Virus record (IMG/VR): IMGVR_UViG_3300025769_000138
Location: 1-57,206 of that record
Direction: 5' to 3' (one strand)
Length of the DNA stretch: 57,206 nt
From: a virus
Part shown: one piece after another, positions 3,851 to 40,379 of the stretch
How the letters are laid out: the number at the start of each line of letters is the position of its first letter
Numbering within the stretch: the first letter of the stretch is position 1
The notes under the pieces: model-generated
What the model was told of the DNA's origin: nothing
What the model saw: the letters and a program-made list of their open reading frames with translations, nothing else
Database searches by the model: none
Translations under genes and position numbers: made by a program

Positions 3851-5011
3851 TTGGCTTTAATAGATCCTAATCAATCTATTGTCTCTTCAGGTAATAGTTC
3901 TGTAACCCCTTTGTCTAGTGGAGCCACCTTCACAGGTACAGGAGAACGGAATGATTTTAGTCATGTAGGAGTACAACTAAAAACTGATAATCCAGGTACA
4001 TTATATTTTGATTTCAGTATTGATGGTACTAACTGGGATAGTACATATCCTGTAAATGGATTTAGAGTAGCAGCTAATATATCTGAATTTCACACTGCGG
4101 TTAAATTAGGTAGGTACTTTCGGGTTCGATTAGTTAATGATACAGGCGCACAGACATTCTTACGTCTCGCCACCTATTATGGAAACTATTTTGTTCCGTC
4201 TGTAGCACCTCTCAATCAACAGGCAGGATTAAACCAAGATGCTATATTTACTAGAGGCACTATACCCCAAGATGAAATACGTATAGGTAGACGAGCTGGG
4301 GCAGACGGCTGGACTAAATTCGGTTATAGGGATGACCTACAATCAGCTTCTGGAGAGCAAACTATATGGGCTGCTTCTGGTAATTTTACTCCTTTAACAA
4401 GTGCTGAAACATTTGATATTGCTTATGATGGTACGGCTGGTGGATCCACAGATGGTGCAGGTACTAATGGAGCTACAGAACTAGCCTTCTATTATATAGA
4501 TTCAGATGGGCTTCCTGCTATATCTACTCATACATTAGGTACTGATGGTAGTGATACTACTTCTTTTAGTGGCTTAGGTATTAATAGGGTTGCTGTTAGT
4601 GCAAGTGGATCTAATGATTATAATACAAGTGATATAACTGTAACAGCTACTACATCAGGTACGACTCAGGCTATTATACCTGCTGAGGGAAGTGTTACTC
4701 AGCAAGCTATATATTTTAATGGGTCTAATCATGATGCTATACTTAAGTACCTATTTTTTAATGTTAATAAATTATCAGGATCGAATCCTAAAGTTACTGT
4801 AAAAGCCTATGTTTATAATAGAGCGGTAGCCACTAGGTATGAAGTGTTTAGACATATTATTGATACTCAATCAGAGAATACTATAACTATTACTGAACCT
4901 GTAGGATTTAATTTATCCCCTACAGATGTGTTATACTTTACAGCTGATACAGATCAGAATGATACAGTGATTACTTTAAGATTTAGTTTAAATCAATACC
5001 AGAGGACTTAA
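3851..5011 (+). CDS. Putative virion appendage/tail protein (386 aa)
   Basis: This large, beta-rich, low-charge protein has features of phage appendages: an N-terminal domain (about 1-115) with FDFSIDGTNW, a middle Gly/Thr-rich region, and a C-terminal beta domain ending SLNQYQRT. The start is TTG, 4 bp after the previous stop. The stop overlaps the ATG of the spike gene by 1 bp, so the two proteins are probably made together and may assemble together. Tail role is inferred from composition and neighbours. Confidence 0.65.
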   Translation: MALIDPNQSIVSSGNSSVTPLSSGATFTGTGERNDFSHVGVQLKTDNPGTLYFDFSIDGTNWDSTYPVNGFRVAANISEFHTAVKLGRYFRVRLVNDTGAQTFLRLATYYGNYFVPSVAPLNQQAGLNQDAIFTRGTIPQDEIRIGRRAGADGWTKFGYRDDLQSASGEQTIWAASGNFTPLTSAETFDIAYDGTAGGSTDGAGTNGATELAFYYIDSDGLPAISTHTLGTDGSDTTSFSGLGINRVAVSASGSNDYNTSDITVTATTSGTTQAIIPAEGSVTQQAIYFNGSNHDAILKYLFFNVNKLSGSNPKVTVKAYVYNRAVATRYEVFRHIIDTQSENTITITEPVGFNLSPTDVLYFTADTDQNDTVITLRFSLNQYQRT

Positions 5012-6963
5012 TGGCAATAGTTTATAATGATAATGAAGTAACTAGTACACAGCTATTTGAAGCTAAGGACTTTGGAGCTATAGCAGATGGTAGTACTGAC
5101 TCTAGGGCTGCTATTAATTCTGCTATAGATGCAGCCTTTAATGCTGGTGGTGGTGTAGTATTATTAGAAGCAGGTACATATATTGTAACAGGTACTGGTA
5201 CTAAATCAGATGGAGCCATCCAAGTAAAGACTAATGTAGCTTTAAAAGGCAAAGGCTTAGGTGTTACTATTATTAAACTCCAAGATACATTCGGTAGTGC
5301 AGTAACAGGATTAATACGTACTCCAGGAGCAGAGGTGACAAGGAATGTTTATGTATCTGATCTTACTATAGATGGCAACAGAGCTAATAATCTTGCAGCA
5401 GCAGGTACAGTTATAGGTATGTATTGTGGGGTAAGTCCTTCAATAAATATTACTTCAATAACTAGATCTGGCTCTACAGCTACAGCCTTGACAGCGGATA
5501 CTCAAGAGATAGTTAATGGTCAGACTGTACATATATTTGCAGAAGATCCTGAAATTACGGAACCAGAATACTTAGGAGATTTTACTGTAGCTAATGTAGT
5601 TACAAATACCAGTTTTGAATACACAGTATCAGGCACTCCTACTACTCCTGCTACAGGAAATGTATTATTCTATGATAACTCTGAAGCTAATGCCTCAGAC
5701 TATGATATTACTTTTGAAAGAGTAGAGATTAAAGATTGTAATGATTACGGGTTTGACCCTCATGAAAGAGTAACAAGATTAAGATTAATAGATTGTAAGT
5801 CGGAGGGTAATGGTGAAGACAATTATGTTGCAGATTATATCATTGATGGGCAATACAAAGGATGTACTTCTGCCTCTGCTGATCGCCATGGGTTTAATAT
5901 CACTACTGGTACTAACAACTTTAGACTAACTAATTGCAGTTCATCTGGAGATACAGAGAATGGTATTATTGTACAGAAAGGGTCTGGCAATACACCTGAT
6001 TGTAAAGATATATTAATAGCCCATAATACTGTAGAGCTAGCAGGTAAAGAAGGTATAAAGATCAGACAATCTCATGACTATATTGTTAAAGGTAATATTA
6101 TAAGAAGTAATGCCAGAGATGGTATGGAGATTAAAGGATCTACTTATGGTATTATTACAGCTAATGAGTTTTCTAACAATGGTACTTCTAATAACAATAG
6201 CTACTCTGATGTAGAAATATATGAAGAAAATGGTTCTACCCCCTCTCAATATAATACTGTATCTAGTAATGTTCATAGAGCTACAGGGACTAATAAGGTT
6301 AAGTACTTTATTGAAGAGGTGGATGATTCTTCTAACTTTAATAGTATCCTAGATAATAAGACAGATGGCAATGCTGTTACTCAAGATATATTAATATCAG
6401 GTATTAATTCTAAAGAAGGGATTACTACTCAGCCAGAAAAATATATTGTAAACAATTACTACTACCCAAGACCTACTGGAGGATCTATATCAACTAAGAC
6501 TTTAACAGCTGGTAGAGAATATTATGTAGGTAGTTTTGTAGCTAAGGAAACTGTTACAGTAACTAGGTTAGGAATTGATGTAGCTACAGGTACAGGTACT
6601 GGTGGGGATACAGCTATCCTAGGTATCTATACAGATAAAGATGGACTACCGTATAAACTTGTAGGAACTAATGATGCAGAAGTAGCTATAGATGCTACAG
6701 CCCAAGTAGAAGCTACAGTATCCTGTCCTCTAGTTAAAGGTAAGAGATACTGGATGGTAGTTAATGTAGAAGCTAATGTATCCTTATCTGCTTTTGCTAA
6801 CTCAAATAATGTGAGAGACACTGGAGGTACTGCATGGAATGGAACCTCTACTCTAGTTAAAGATACTGTAGCTTATAGCAGTACTTTAGCAGCTACGTCT
6901 TCAGCTACAGCTGGAGATTACAGCAATGAATCCAACCCTTTAATGTGGTTTAGAATAGTATAA
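5011..6963 (+). CDS. Tail spike, right-handed beta-helix (650 aa)
   Basis: Residues about 15-60 contain DFGAIADGSTDSRAAINSAI, the classic start of pectate-lyase-like phage spikes. This is followed by long arrays of short beta-helix repeats (about 90-430). A C-terminal beta-sandwich (about 480-650) is likely a receptor or carbohydrate module. Proteins of this build bind or cut surface polysaccharide. No catalytic residues can be assigned from sequence alone. It is unusual that it lies upstream of the terminase genes rather than with the fibres at 17728. Confidence 0.85.
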   Translation: MAIVYNDNEVTSTQLFEAKDFGAIADGSTDSRAAINSAIDAAFNAGGGVVLLEAGTYIVTGTGTKSDGAIQVKTNVALKGKGLGVTIIKLQDTFGSAVTGLIRTPGAEVTRNVYVSDLTIDGNRANNLAAAGTVIGMYCGVSPSINITSITRSGSTATALTADTQEIVNGQTVHIFAEDPEITEPEYLGDFTVANVVTNTSFEYTVSGTPTTPATGNVLFYDNSEANASDYDITFERVEIKDCNDYGFDPHERVTRLRLIDCKSEGNGEDNYVADYIIDGQYKGCTSASADRHGFNITTGTNNFRLTNCSSSGDTENGIIVQKGSGNTPDCKDILIAHNTVELAGKEGIKIRQSHDYIVKGNIIRSNARDGMEIKGSTYGIITANEFSNNGTSNNNSYSDVEIYEENGSTPSQYNTVSSNVHRATGTNKVKYFIEEVDDSSNFNSILDNKTDGNAVTQDILISGINSKEGITTQPEKYIVNNYYYPRPTGGSISTKTLTAGREYYVGSFVAKETVTVTRLGIDVATGTGTGGDTAILGIYTDKDGLPYKLVGTNDAEVAIDATAQVEATVSCPLVKGKRYWMVVNVEANVSLSAFANSNNVRDTGGTAWNGTSTLVKDTVAYSSTLAATSSATAGDYSNESNPLMWFRIV

Positions 6964-31896: not shown

Positions 31897-33159
31897 TCAA
31901 CCTCTACCCCAAACATTATCCCAAGATCCACTAAGCTCCTTCTTAGTATACTCTGTAACTCTAGCTTCAAAGAAGTTAGCATGTTCTACAGAGTTTAACA
32001 TATCAGCTAACCAAGGTAAAGGATTATCTTTAACTCCATAGTTAGTTTTTAATCCTAGCTGTAGTAATCTTCTATCAGCTATATACCTAATATATTGCTT
32101 AACTTCTTCTTTAGTTAATCCCTCTACTCCACCTTGAGCAAAAGCTAAGTCAATAAACCTATCCTCTAGATCTACCATCTGCCTACAACATTCATAGATC
32201 TCTCCTCTAGTCTCATCTCCAGCAGCACTATTCCAGAACACTTTATTGTCTTCCACTAAAGTACGGAATACTTTAATCATAGATTCTACATGAAGGCTCT
32301 CGTCTCTACATTTATGTTCAGATAAGTTCGTTACTCTTATCCCGCTTTCGCTGCTTTATGTTACCATAAAGATCGGACTATATCATCACCGCTCTTGCAG
32401 TGTTAGGCGCTTCGGGCTACTTAGCCCTACTCTCTTTCGAGATAGTCTCTGAACCTTCCAATTCTTGCCATAACTGTCAAGCAAGTATTGGCTTGGCTGC
32501 TGATTGTCCTTCTCAGGAGTTTCCAGCAATTCACCTAATTTAAGGAGCACTCAAGCTTAGTTAATGCTCCAGCTCACTATCTGTCCCATACCTTTCATCT
32601 TACCAAACCTTTGGAAGTTCATAAGGATGGCAAAGGAACTGAACAATTGCATACCTTCAGTAAATGCTGAGTAGATAGCTACAGATTTAAGTAGATCTGC
32701 GGTAGCATAAGTACCATCTAGTCTAGGCTTAAGATCCACCATAGATTCTACATAATCATGCTTATCTTTCATCTCTTCATACTCTAGGAAAGCTTTATAC
32801 TCTAGCTCAGGCATACCTACAGTATCTAATAGGTGAGCATATGATAATACGTGGTTGACTTCCATAGCAGCAAAGGTAGTCATCATCATTCTAAGATCAG
32901 GATTCTTAAACACCTTGATGTAATTATCTAAGTATCCTTTAGCAACATCCATATCTGCAGTAACAAAGAACCTAAAGATCTGAGTCAAAAGATTCTTCTC
33001 TTCAGGAGTTAACTTTAGTTTCCAGTCTGATATGTCCTCTTTCATAGGTACTTCTGAAGGAAGCCAGAACATACTTTGTTGTGCTTCTGTAGCTTCAATA
33101 GCCCATGAGAAGTCTAAGGGTCTGAAGTAGTTTCTTTCTTGTAGTGCTTTACTTGTCAT
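31897..33159 (-). CDS. nrdB: Ribonucleotide reductase beta subunit, interrupted by a group I intron (335 aa when spliced)
   Basis: Exon 1 is 33159-32564 and exon 2 is 32308-31897. Joined, they give 1008 nt in one frame. The radical/metal centre is split: exon 1 has EVNHVLSY (Glu100, His103, radical Tyr107) and TEGMQLF (Glu168), while exon 2 begins with Arg-Asp-Glu-Ser-Leu-His, the second ExxH ligand pair. The intron interrupts an Ile codon (AT|T) just before that motif. Without splicing, translation stops two codons later. It pairs with NrdA just upstream. Confidence 0.93.
32309..32563 (-). ncRNA. Self-splicing group I intron in nrdB (255 nt)
   Basis: On the minus strand the core elements appear in order: CAATCAGCAGCCAAGC, then GTTCAGAGACTA, then GATATAGTCCGATC, the conserved core of T4-type (td/nrdB/sunY) group I introns. 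The 5' exon ends in T, the intron ends in G, and removal restores the NrdB frame. It has no open reading frame, so it is a small intron without its own homing endonuclease. Confidence 0.93.
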
Positions 33160-38082: not shown

Positions 38083-39246
38083 TTATTTATTCCCCTCAAT
38101 CATCTTCTTATTAAGATCCATTAAAGCTTGAAGACCTACGGCATCAAAAGGATTTACTTTGGTTCCATCAGCATCAGAGCCTCCACTTACCATAATCTGA
38201 GGTAATCTTACTTTAGATAACTCTCTTGCTACACCAATAGCTGTATCCCTATCAAACTCAGCTTGCTCTCTAGGAGATAAACCAGCAGCTACCTTTAGTC
38301 TAGCAGCCTCAGCTTCAGCTTCACCTTTAAGGATGATAGCTTTCTTTTCTTCCTCAGCTTTAAGAGCTAACTGCTCTGCTACTTCCTTCTCCTTCTCAGC
38401 CTTAATAACAGCAGACTCTTTCTCTACTAGAGCTTTGTACTTCTCCCTAGCTACATTAGCCTTCCCTTGTTCCTCAGCTTTGATAGCATCTTGTTTAGCT
38501 TTCTTAGCTTCAGCTTTAGCAAGGATCTCTTCTTGCTCTGATTTCTTACGTGCAGAAATTAACTGATCTGTTTTATCATCAAAGTCTATTTCTTTGATAA
38601 CCAATTGGATAACATCTACATTATAAGTCTCGAAAGCAGAAGGTTCATTAATAATAGGAACACCATTCTTATCTAATTTTTTAGATACAACCCTAATGAT
38701 CTTAGAGTTACCTTCTGAATCAGTGATACTTTTTTCTTCGTACTCTGTAGCATATAACCCTTCTTTAACCTGCTCTAATACAAGGTTAATAAAATCTCCT
38801 CTACGAGTAGAGTACACTTCCTCTGCACCAAAATGAGTAGCAGATTGTTTAAGGGTAGCTGCTACTACCTGTCTGACTAGATCTGTATGAACTGCTTCAT
38901 AAGAACGGAACTCATTATGTAGTTTAAGTACATCTTTTTCTTTAGCTGGTAACTTAAATTTAATCTGTCCTGTAATAGCAGCTGTAGCTCCATCATTAAA
39001 TCGAACGGTGATAGGCTGATTATCAAAGCTATATGTATCTGATATCTTATAAGTAAAGATATCTCCAAAGTTCTGTAAATACATACCAGGATCTGTTTTA
39101 ACAGACATATTACCAGAAATAGCAGCCTGTTTTACTTGCATATAACCTGCATTATTAGTCTCAATTAAACTGGCTCCAGCAGTTAGTCCTACAACAACTG
39201 CAAGCCCTCCTATTACAATAGAAATATCTTTTAATATACTCATCAT
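38083..39246 (-). CDS. SPFH/band-7 (prohibitin-like) membrane protein (387 aa)
   Basis: An N-terminal TM helix (about 8-28, VIGGLAVVVGLTAGASLI) is followed by an SPFH domain (about 30-220) and a long Ala/Glu/Lys-rich coiled coil (about 225-330). This is the order seen in prohibitins, flotillins and HflK/C. Such proteins form large ring or cage assemblies on the inner membrane and can modulate proteases. Role in infection is unknown. A good ribosome site AAAAGGTGGA precedes the double ATG. Confidence 0.85.
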   Translation of the reverse strand: MMSILKDISIVIGGLAVVVGLTAGASLIETNNAGYMQVKQAAISGNMSVKTDPGMYLQNFGDIFTYKISDTYSFDNQPITVRFNDGATAAITGQIKFKLPAKEKDVLKLHNEFRSYEAVHTDLVRQVVAATLKQSATHFGAEEVYSTRRGDFINLVLEQVKEGLYATEYEEKSITDSEGNSKIIRVVSKKLDKNGVPIINEPSAFETYNVDVIQLVIKEIDFDDKTDQLISARKKSEQEEILAKAEAKKAKQDAIKAEEQGKANVAREKYKALVEKESAVIKAEKEKEVAEQLALKAEEEKKAIILKGEAEAEAARLKVAAGLSPREQAEFDRDTAIGVARELSKVRLPQIMVSGGSDADGTKVNPFDAVGLQALMDLNKKMIEGNK

Positions 39247-39266: not shown

Positions 39267-39343
39267 TGGTAGTCCCGACAGGGTTTGAACCTGCAATCTC
39301 CCGATTGAAAGTCGGACGTGTTAACCAATTACACTACGGGACC
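39267..39343 (-). tRNA. tRNA-Glu (anticodon TTC)
   Basis: A full cloverleaf is readable: acceptor GGTCCCG/CGGGACT, anticodon stem TCCGA/TCGGG with loop CTTTCAA (anticodon TTC), and T-loop TTCAAAC. The discriminator A is followed by an encoded CCA end. It reads GAA, a very frequent codon in this AT-rich genome. It lies 3 bp downstream of tRNA-Pro. Confidence 0.95.
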
Positions 39344-39346
39344 GTA

Positions 39347-39424
39347 TGGTCAGGGTGGCAGGGTTTGCACCTGCGATCTCTGGTTTCCAAAACCAGCGGA
39401 TTAACTAGACTTTCCCACACCCTG
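39347..39424 (-). tRNA. tRNA-Pro (anticodon TGG)
   Basis: The acceptor stem is CAGGGTG/CACCCTG with discriminator A and encoded CCA. The anticodon stem is CTGGT/ACCAG with loop TTTGGAA (anticodon TGG). The T-arm stem is GCAGG/CCTGC with loop TGCAAAC, a slight variant of the usual TTCAAAC. It reads CCA/CCT-type proline codons. Its 5' end lies 4 bases from the structured RNA candidate. Confidence 0.93.
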
Positions 39425-39427
39425 ATA

Positions 39428-39580
39428 ATTAATGCTGAGGACGCAACTATGTTACGCCCTCGAATACCTTTTCTACACTTGGCAGATAGGCTTAAGCAGT
39501 TTTTATTCTTGCTTAGGAACGGAGGGTTAGTTTGAGCATTGTAAACAAGAGGCTTAACCCTGCTCTGCCTAGGCATTAAT
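39428..39580 (-). ncRNA. Candidate structured RNA (~150 nt) upstream of tRNA-Pro
   Basis: The outer arms ATTAATGC/GCATTAAT (39428-39435, 39573-39580) enclose an 11-bp hairpin (39437-39461, 3-base loop) and a three-way junction. That junction is closed by GGCAGA/TCTGCC (39481-39486, 39564-39569), with arms TAAGCA/TGCTTA (39493-39498, 39510-39515) and GGGTTA/TAACCC (39524-39529, 39555-39560). In the 11-bp hairpin two positions pair as G-U only on the minus strand, which supports a minus-strand transcript. It overlaps the stop codon of the SSB-like gene. No known family is recognised. Confidence 0.6.
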
Positions 39581-40379
39581 CAAATGGATTCTCACCATCA
39601 ACTTCAGCATCAACTACTTCAATAATAGTAGCATCCTCTATATCTCCTGTCAACACTTTATTATACTCACTTATAATCCATTTATTTCTTTCAGCAATAT
39701 AAGTAACTGCATCTTTCAAATGCCCCATAATAGAGGAAGGATCTTCTAAAGTATACTCTTTATCCTCAGTGATAGAGAAGTCATAACCATCATGATCTGA
39801 AGCCTTAACTAAAGAGAAATCAAAAGCATGAGTATAGTAAGAATCGTATTTCACTGATTTAAAAGCATCTCCTACTGCTTTAAACTTACCCCCAGATACT
39901 TTAAGGTCTACTAAAATATCCTTTTCACCAGGAATCTCTACTAATCCGAAGCAATGCATATAGACAGGAACTTCTTTCCTCCAAGCTTTCTGGTCGTCAA
40001 CCTCTAATTGCTCGAAAGCTTTCTTAGCTGGTCTGCCACACCTAACTCCTCCAAGAGTATCAATAGGCTCTTGCTTCCAATTATCAAAGAAAATAGACTG
40101 GCACTCTACGTGGTCATGAGCTTCATTCCATCTAAGGTATTGATAGAATACACATAAAGGTTTGAACTTAAAGCTGTCTAAAGTACCTTCATAACCTGTT
40201 ACTTCAAAGACACCTTTCATCTTTGACTTACCTTTAACCTTTACCACCTTACCGTTCTCATCTGTAACAGCATCCTCAGTCCATGAAACTGAAGGGTAGC
40301 CTTCTGATTTTTCTTTAGTAAACTTAGCGATTAAACTATCTACTAAGTTCTCTTGTGTTGTTGCTATTTCGTTAGTCAT
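39576..40379 (-). CDS. Single-stranded DNA-binding protein-like (267 aa)
   Basis: Its position next to the DNA polymerase and its acidic end with a near-terminal Phe (DGENPFD) match phage SSB proteins, whose tails dock replication partners. The body is mixed beta with conserved aromatic segments (FKPLCVFYQYLRWNE). No other SSB gene is visible. Assignment rests on tail, length and synteny, so it is probable but not certain. Confidence 0.6.
   Translation of the reverse strand: MTNEIATTQENLVDSLIAKFTKEKSEGYPSVSWTEDAVTDENGKVVKVKGKSKMKGVFEVTGYEGTLDSFKFKPLCVFYQYLRWNEAHDHVECQSIFFDNWKQEPIDTLGGVRCGRPAKKAFEQLEVDDQKAWRKEVPVYMHCFGLVEIPGEKDILVDLKVSGGKFKAVGDAFKSVKYDSYYTHAFDFSLVKASDHDGYDFSITEDKEYTLEDPSSIMGHLKDAVTYIAERNKWIISEYNKVLTGDIEDATIIEVVDAEVDGENPFD

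Follow-up and report, generated by a model that had tools for sequence, protein, structure and literature searches.

Two linked modules of structured RNA lie on the minus strand of an IMG/VR virus record, which comes from a marine-type virus of bacteria. One, at 39562-39522, is an abiF-like hairpin, and the other, at 39493-39431, is a copy of a new two-hairpin motif; both are located just 5' of the genes for tRNA-Pro and tRNA-Glu. Positions are those of the window, the whole stretch of 57,206 nucleotides that was analysed. The new motif, which we call motif B, is a self-contained and usually single-copy element found in phages of many hosts. The comparisons below establish the structure, strand and spread of the RNA and the linkage of its modules, and it is close to certain that this is a real RNA, read from the minus strand, that belongs to a widespread and uncatalogued motif. 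As for its role, we tentatively favour a small counter-defence RNA of phages that may mimic RNA antitoxins.

Results

The RNA locus and its folds

The DNA polymerase encoded in the window is 34-39% identical to those of HMO-2011-type phages, with which the window shares the gene order polymerase, SSB-like gene and Cas4-domain exonuclease. Searches with the polymerase and the SSB-like protein found no close relatives, only distant ones of the HMO-2011 type (identity ≤39%). Between the SSB-like gene and the exonuclease the window has an insert that holds the RNA, the tRNAs, a Band-7 gene and MazG. At the corresponding place the RNA is absent from all loci of 86 HMO-2011-type relatives, and a tRNA is present in none of the 86, the single tRNA-Arg of locus L081 being elsewhere. 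The elements of the locus are as follows.

39576..40379, minus strand: 267-aa gene upstream of the RNA, placed like the SSB-like gene that comes after the DNA polymerase of HMO-2011-type phages (from gene order and an alignment with 17-24% identity)
39573..39580, minus strand: outer stem, 5' strand, AUUAAUGC, which shares nucleotides with the stop codon of the SSB-like gene; base-pair probability 0.996; unconserved in relatives
39564..39569, minus strand: GGCAGA, which in alternative folds can pair with UCUGCC (39486-39481) and would then block hairpin 1; unconserved
39522..39562, minus strand: abiF-like hairpin, stem GGGUUA/UAACCC, loop AGCCUC..AUGCUCAAAC; best match Rfam RF03085
39491..39517, minus strand: spacer hairpin CCUAAGCA/UGCUUAAG between the two modules, from sequence and folding; no homologue found
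39431..39493, minus strand: motif B (covariance model R1), made up of hairpin 1, a linker of 4-5 nt, hairpin 2 and the tail AGCAUU
39467..39490, minus strand: hairpin 1, CCUAUCUGCCAAGUGUAGAAAAGG, with P1 CCU/AGG, an asymmetric internal loop A/AA, a 5-bp helix and the loop CAAGU
39437..39461, minus strand: hairpin 2, GAGGGCGUAAC-AUA-GUUGCGUCCUC; base-pair probability 0.996
39428..39435, minus strand: 3' strand of the outer stem, GCAUUAAU, ending 3 nt before tRNA-Pro
39347..39424, minus strand: tRNA-Pro (TGG), from ARAGORN and Rfam
39267..39343, minus strand: tRNA-Glu (TTC), from ARAGORN and Rfam

The Band-7/SPFH-domain protein gene (38083-39246, minus strand) lies immediately 3' of the tRNAs. 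At the gathering score Rfam gives nothing for the RNA region, and elsewhere in the window it gives only the two tRNAs and a group I intron (RF00028, 105 bits) at 32354-32630 on the minus strand, in a gap between ORFs. A search for a tRNA or degenerate tRNA at the RNA with ARAGORN and Rfam returned only the two neighbouring tRNAs.

An earlier note on this DNA had proposed a structured RNA of ~150 nt at 39428-39580, with selection acting on the minus strand, that would be neither a tRNA nor a plain terminator. The minus strand of this stretch folds at -50.5 kcal/mol with a z-score of -4.6, none of 200 dinucleotide shuffles being as good, while the z-score of the plus strand is -2.4. The motif model also matches the minus strand, and the RNA has no Rfam family of its own. 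The proposal of a structured minus-strand RNA that is neither tRNA nor plain terminator is supported. By folding energy the locus ranks 9th among the 6716 segments of 153 nt on both strands, which is unusual but not unique; the energy alone is thus not decisive and a comparison of homologues is needed.

All the pairings described in the note can be found in the sequence. The outer stem ATTAATGC/GCATTAAT joins 39580-39573 to 39435-39428 and overlaps the stop of the 267-aa gene, the 11-bp hairpin (39461-39437) is fully paired on the minus strand, G-U pairs included, and GGCAGA/TCTGCC is present with both arms, the first of which is the abiF-like hairpin and the second the spacer hairpin. The way in which the note assembled them stands only in part. 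The 11-bp hairpin is hairpin 2 of the motif, but the three-way junction closed by GGCAGA/TCTGCC is unconserved and competes with hairpin 1, to which TCTGCC belongs. Nor do the ~150 nt form a single unit, since the conserved unit spans ~63 nt (39493-39431) and the other arm is the abiF-like hairpin. Folding with hairpins 1 and 2 enforced gives -50.8 kcal/mol and retains the outer stem, the abiF-like hairpin and the spacer hairpin; the three-way junction gives -46.4 kcal/mol. The unconstrained minimum, a rod-like fold in which GGCAGA and UCUGCC are also paired, has -53.6 kcal/mol and is 2.8 kcal/mol more stable than the conserved fold, so that the window sequence could adopt either form. The GGCAGA/UCUGCC alternative could be a switch or a lineage-specific accident.

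Motif B is supported by covariation

The covariance model R1 was trained on nine loci with the window held out. On the window it scored 59.2 bits (E 6e-17, filters off) at 39493-39431 of the minus strand, the sole copy there, and no Rfam family matches the motif. The consensus is CCUAUCYRC-CANGU-GYRGAAAAGG for hairpin 1 and, after the linker of 4-5 nt, a second hairpin with a CG-U/GCG step, to which the window conforms; conservation fades ~7 nt past hairpin 2.

Among 68 distinct sequences, in an alignment that was fitted to the model and hence leans towards the structure, though with large margins nonetheless, 95.9% of base-pair cells are paired and 14 of the 17 pairs have two-sided changes, which are the compensatory changes that the earlier note had said would support the RNA. 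None of 500 shuffles reached any of the measures, and the covariation score was 0.398 compared with 0.139 for shuffled alignments and at most 0.076 for slid partners. Alignment A6, in which copies had one linker base removed to hold the register, was excluded from every model and count. Hairpin 1 has eight pairs, with 99.6% of cells paired and two-sided changes in five; its first P1 pair is C-G in 57 sequences, A-U in 8 and U-A in 2. In hairpin 2 two-sided changes are seen in all nine modelled pairs (91.8% of cells paired), the commonest pairs forming a step of C-G, G-C and U.G, with U.G the most frequent at one position. Among the unpaired bases, those that stay fixed are A and AA in the internal loop together with most of CANGU, the loop of hairpin 1.

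Motif B is spread across phages of many hosts

A word-11 BLASTN search with the window RNA found one spot, CCTATCTRCCAAGTGTAGAAAAGG, in intergenic DNA of Kayvirus, where it lies upstream of tRNA-Met, and of the unrelated Staphylococcus phage BE20. The degenerate pattern CTATCYRCCNNGTGYRGAAAAG, which left four helix positions free among pyrimidines or purines, found 73 stretches in IMG/VR viral contigs. Hairpin 1 is present in all 73, and nearly all have the short linker and a second hairpin; at the four free positions only one cell is unpaired in the counted alignment. The motif occurs at ~70 distinct places, mostly in phages, which include Kayvirus, Rockefellervirus, SPbeta-like, Muribaculaceae and uncultivated phages. 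When 26 phage records were searched whole, 25 held the motif, as a single copy in 23 and as a tandem pair in two. Tandem pairs were seen in Staphylococcus phage BE20 (L088, 739-795 and 798-864), a Clostridia contig (L170, 1420-1534) and a 175-kb phage (G006, 110818-110945), and some SPbeta-like prophages have a second, degenerate copy ~140 nt downstream.

Of 84,980 species genomes of bacteria and archaea, 7 had an exact match to the pattern, some of these matches at least being in prophages or phage contigs, and among 398 Bacilli genomes the motif was found only in the already known Bacillus genome (0 of the 397 others). At least one of the seven matches, that in Pseudanabaena, is a spacer inside a CRISPR array (L171, around 2582-2616) that contains the hairpin-1 core GACTATCTGCCAAGTGTAGAAAAGTT. 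The cyanobacterium has thus sampled the motif from a phage, which is independent evidence that hosts see the sequence as foreign. R1 found nothing in 724 kb of HMO-type loci, and matches in HMO-2011 (12.8 bits) and Pseudoalteromonas ACA1 (11.4 bits) were rejected as weak. Mimicry of rRNA was also rejected, with R1 giving only noise on the E. coli rRNA operon. We found no account of the motif in the open-access literature, whether we searched by sequence or by topic.

The upstream module resembles abiF RNA

The hairpin upstream of motif B is likely to be related to abiF RNA (RF03085), the antitoxin of AbiF/Abi_2 systems such as RCd22-AbiF, in which the same hairpin and AGCCUC..AUGCUCAAAC loop are found. 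RF03085 is the best Rfam family for the stretch, though at 15.1 bits it is below the gathering score of 37. The hallmarks of abiF RNA are present, with AGC/GCU inner pairs and the loop CUCU..AUGCUCAAAC, in which a 3-nt insertion that lengthens the loop is the sole mismatch of loop letters. The stem is complementary but A-U-richer and made of bases other than those of abiF RNA. A counterpart in Kayvirus is located 75 nt before its motif copy, with AAGCCTCTTGTTTACAATGCTCAAAC against AAGCCTCTTGTATAATGCTAAAC inside different but complementary stems, and with the abiF RNA model (threshold 37) similar hairpins from seven IMG/VR loci reach 41-56 bits.

A second model, R2, was made from seven phage abiF hairpins, the loci being chosen by matching stem and Rfam score; one of its ten pairs was written one column off, which affects the scores little. 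In 565 kb of motif-bearing loci the window arm was its top match, at 19.2 bits, followed by matches in L159, L110 and L119. All four share the strand of the motif and lie less than 300 nt away from it, and the product of the four position chances is ~1e-6. The matches are singly weak (E 0.4-0.7), so that it is the shared position that constitutes the evidence. In 553 kb of control loci R2 found no abiF-like match, and in most motif loci an abiF-like hairpin was not detectable.

In C. difficile the AbiF toxin is bound and neutralised by the abiF RNA RCd22, which works both in cis and in trans (PMC12373285), and the cyanophage S-CREM1, with 24 tRNAs, carries an abiF RNA (PMC9964418). Whereas in the type III-like AbiF toxin-antitoxin system the toxin gene lies beside the RNA, no gene for Abi_2 (PF07751) was found in the window or in 23 other records, some of which are fragments, and the abiF RNAs of phages stand alone in the records searched here. 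The window also differs in that the abiF-like hairpin is followed by motif B, which is not abiF.

Genomic context of motif B

The note had described the RNA as locked onto tRNA-Pro. This is true in the window, where the tRNA starts 3 nt beyond the outer stem, but elsewhere the motif is found 5' or 3' of various tRNAs or just after unrelated genes. A same-strand tRNA is present within 300 nt of 24 of the 70 distinct copies, several of which abut tRNAs without a gap on one or both sides, and in ~16 cases the motif starts 1-10 nt past a stop codon. Upstream lie unrelated genes, which encode capsid, Mu F-like, AAA ATPase, metallophosphatase and Tad2-like proteins. The 59 flanking proteins vary (sigma-70 region 4, HNH, Tad2-like and structural proteins), and no common toxin or family was found among them with Pfam and PADLOC. 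In four Bacteroidales-type phage loci (L118, L125, L136 and L168) the gene immediately before the motif encodes a Tad2-like (anti-Thoeris) domain. A single copy in each genome, at varying places, would be easier to reconcile with a gene for a trans-acting RNA than with a signal in cis.

Other RNAs were seen near the motif. The best-scoring copies are just upstream of a permuted phage tmRNA (L108, 12636-12694; L160, 2242-2300), and L108 has a GOLLD RNA at 4754-5180. Near-threshold matches to DUF3800-I RNA (42-43 bits, gathering 44.2) are found in Kayvirus (L090, 1470-1606; L091, 1388-1517), downstream of the motif-bearing tRNA region. The recurring sequence CCAGAGAGATAAGA..AGCAGTAGTCGG..TTCTGG between the tRNAs of the L105 and L170 arrays has the appearance of another structured RNA belonging to phage tRNA islands.

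The many copies that begin directly after stop codons or tRNA 3' ends would also be expected if the two hairpins were punctuation in cis, marking 3' ends or processing sites between genes and tRNAs as a terminator, RNase site or stabiliser. Consistent with this, the T fraction is 0.42 in the 10 nt after hairpin 2 compared with 0.26 further on, and TTTT follows hairpin 2 in 13 of 50 copies, compared with 3 and 1 in control stretches. We nevertheless consider punctuation unlikely, though deserving some weight: terminators and processing sites recur, whereas the motif usually has one copy per genome, the strictly conserved unpaired bases of hairpin 1 need a specific partner, and in the window tRNA-Pro starts only 3 nt beyond the stem. 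The U-runs may instead indicate that the RNA ends itself in some phages and is excised by tRNA processing in others.

Discussion

A possible counter-defence RNA

In the counter-defence reading that we tentatively favour, the RNA would be co-transcribed with the replication operon and then released as a small RNA, for which RNase P cleavage at tRNA-Pro, plausible here, would trim the 3' side. Once released, the RNA may work in trans, engaging RNA-controlled toxins of the host defence as a decoy or antitoxin mimic; the abiF-like hairpin would be aimed at AbiF-type HEPN toxins and motif B at some RNA-binding toxin or other host protein. A trans-acting design is suggested because the motif is mostly single-copy, has unrelated flanking genes and lies flush against tRNAs, and the link to abiF because the four best abiF-like matches are near the motif and Kayvirus has the same pair. 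Two further observations argue for the counter-defence reading, namely that abiF-like hairpins stand alone, without an Abi_2 gene in 24 records, and that the motif follows a Tad2-like gene in the four Bacteroidales-type loci. Against it are the abiF score below the Rfam threshold, the lack of a toxin gene beside the motif, the many loci without an abiF-like hairpin, the terminator-like U-run in a quarter of the copies and the more stable rod fold of the window.

The proposed mode of action has a precedent in phage PhiTE, which escapes ToxIN through RNA antitoxin mimics (PMC3475682); its pseudo-ToxI imitates an RNA antitoxin of the host. ToxI itself is a pseudoknot repeat, whereas the window has two separate hairpin modules with a putative target. 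A single PhiTE pseudo-ToxI repeat is not antitoxic alone (PMC3475682), so that resemblance is no proof of activity. A more specific version of this idea, and a more doubtful one, is that motif B mimics the RNA antitoxin of a not-yet-described RNA-controlled host toxin and would form, together with stand-alone abiF-like RNAs and tRNAs, an 'anti-defence RNA island' in phages of many bacterial phyla.

Other readings of the motif

The nearest architectural parallel is the putRNA of HK022, likewise a phage RNA of ~70 nt with two stem-loops, which acts in cis on the host polymerase (PMC9378689). An antiterminator of this kind, binding RNA polymerase and helping it through untranslated tRNA arrays, would agree with the many motif loci that precede or sit within such arrays, and the wide host range suggests a universal partner; in both cases a wide-acting host partner is conceivable. 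We regard this as improbable, since there is no sequence or covariance match (R1 has none in the HK022 record) and the genomic positions differ, the flanking genes being random and the sites after capsid, regulator or anti-defence genes not being the starts of operons. It is very unlikely that the motif is a riboswitch or attenuator in which hairpin 1 senses and hairpin 2 terminates, for though hairpin 2 is terminator-like in about a quarter of copies and GGCAGA is able to sequester hairpin 1 in the window, the downstream gene is not constant and tRNAs are often directly 3'.

Hardly more credible, and slightly less so if anything, is a self-cleaving ribozyme that trims phage tRNA precursors. 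Theta ribozymes, which are HDV-like and lie beside viral tRNAs, have been reported from gut phages and assigned a part in tRNA-based recoding (PMC10879173), and motif B can also be found beside tRNAs. Many copies, though, do not adjoin tRNAs, there is no double pseudoknot, the conserved unpaired bases are few, and no Rfam ribozyme (HDV-like, hammerhead, twister and others) matched even at permissive E-values. We discount almost entirely an RNA anti-CRISPR that mimics CRISPR repeats, which was suggested by the form UCUAC-loop-GUAGA of hairpin 1 in some copies, superficially similar to Cas12a repeats; the helix can vary (CCGC/GCGG, CCAC/GUGG) whereas flanks that are alien to those repeats stay fixed, and the second hairpin is conserved.

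Structured RNAs of phage tRNA islands

The phage RNAs GOLLD and ROOL, whose function is unknown, also occur near tRNA islands (PMC12286853), and in L108 GOLLD is in the same array as motif B; they are hundreds of nucleotides long, however, and their structures are unrelated to the motif. In phage K transcription of the four tRNAs falls in mid-infection, and the tRNA genes have abundant long non-coding RNAs beside them (PMC9241854). Motif B is a compact, strictly conserved and strongly covarying phage RNA of very wide range that has been missed by Rfam, although it is present in therapeutic phages that have been well studied, phage K among them. Its link to abiF offers a testable idea of why phage tRNA islands hold structured RNAs, some of which may disarm RNA-controlled abortive-infection toxins. 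If this is true, the motif would serve as bait in the search for a host defence system not yet known.
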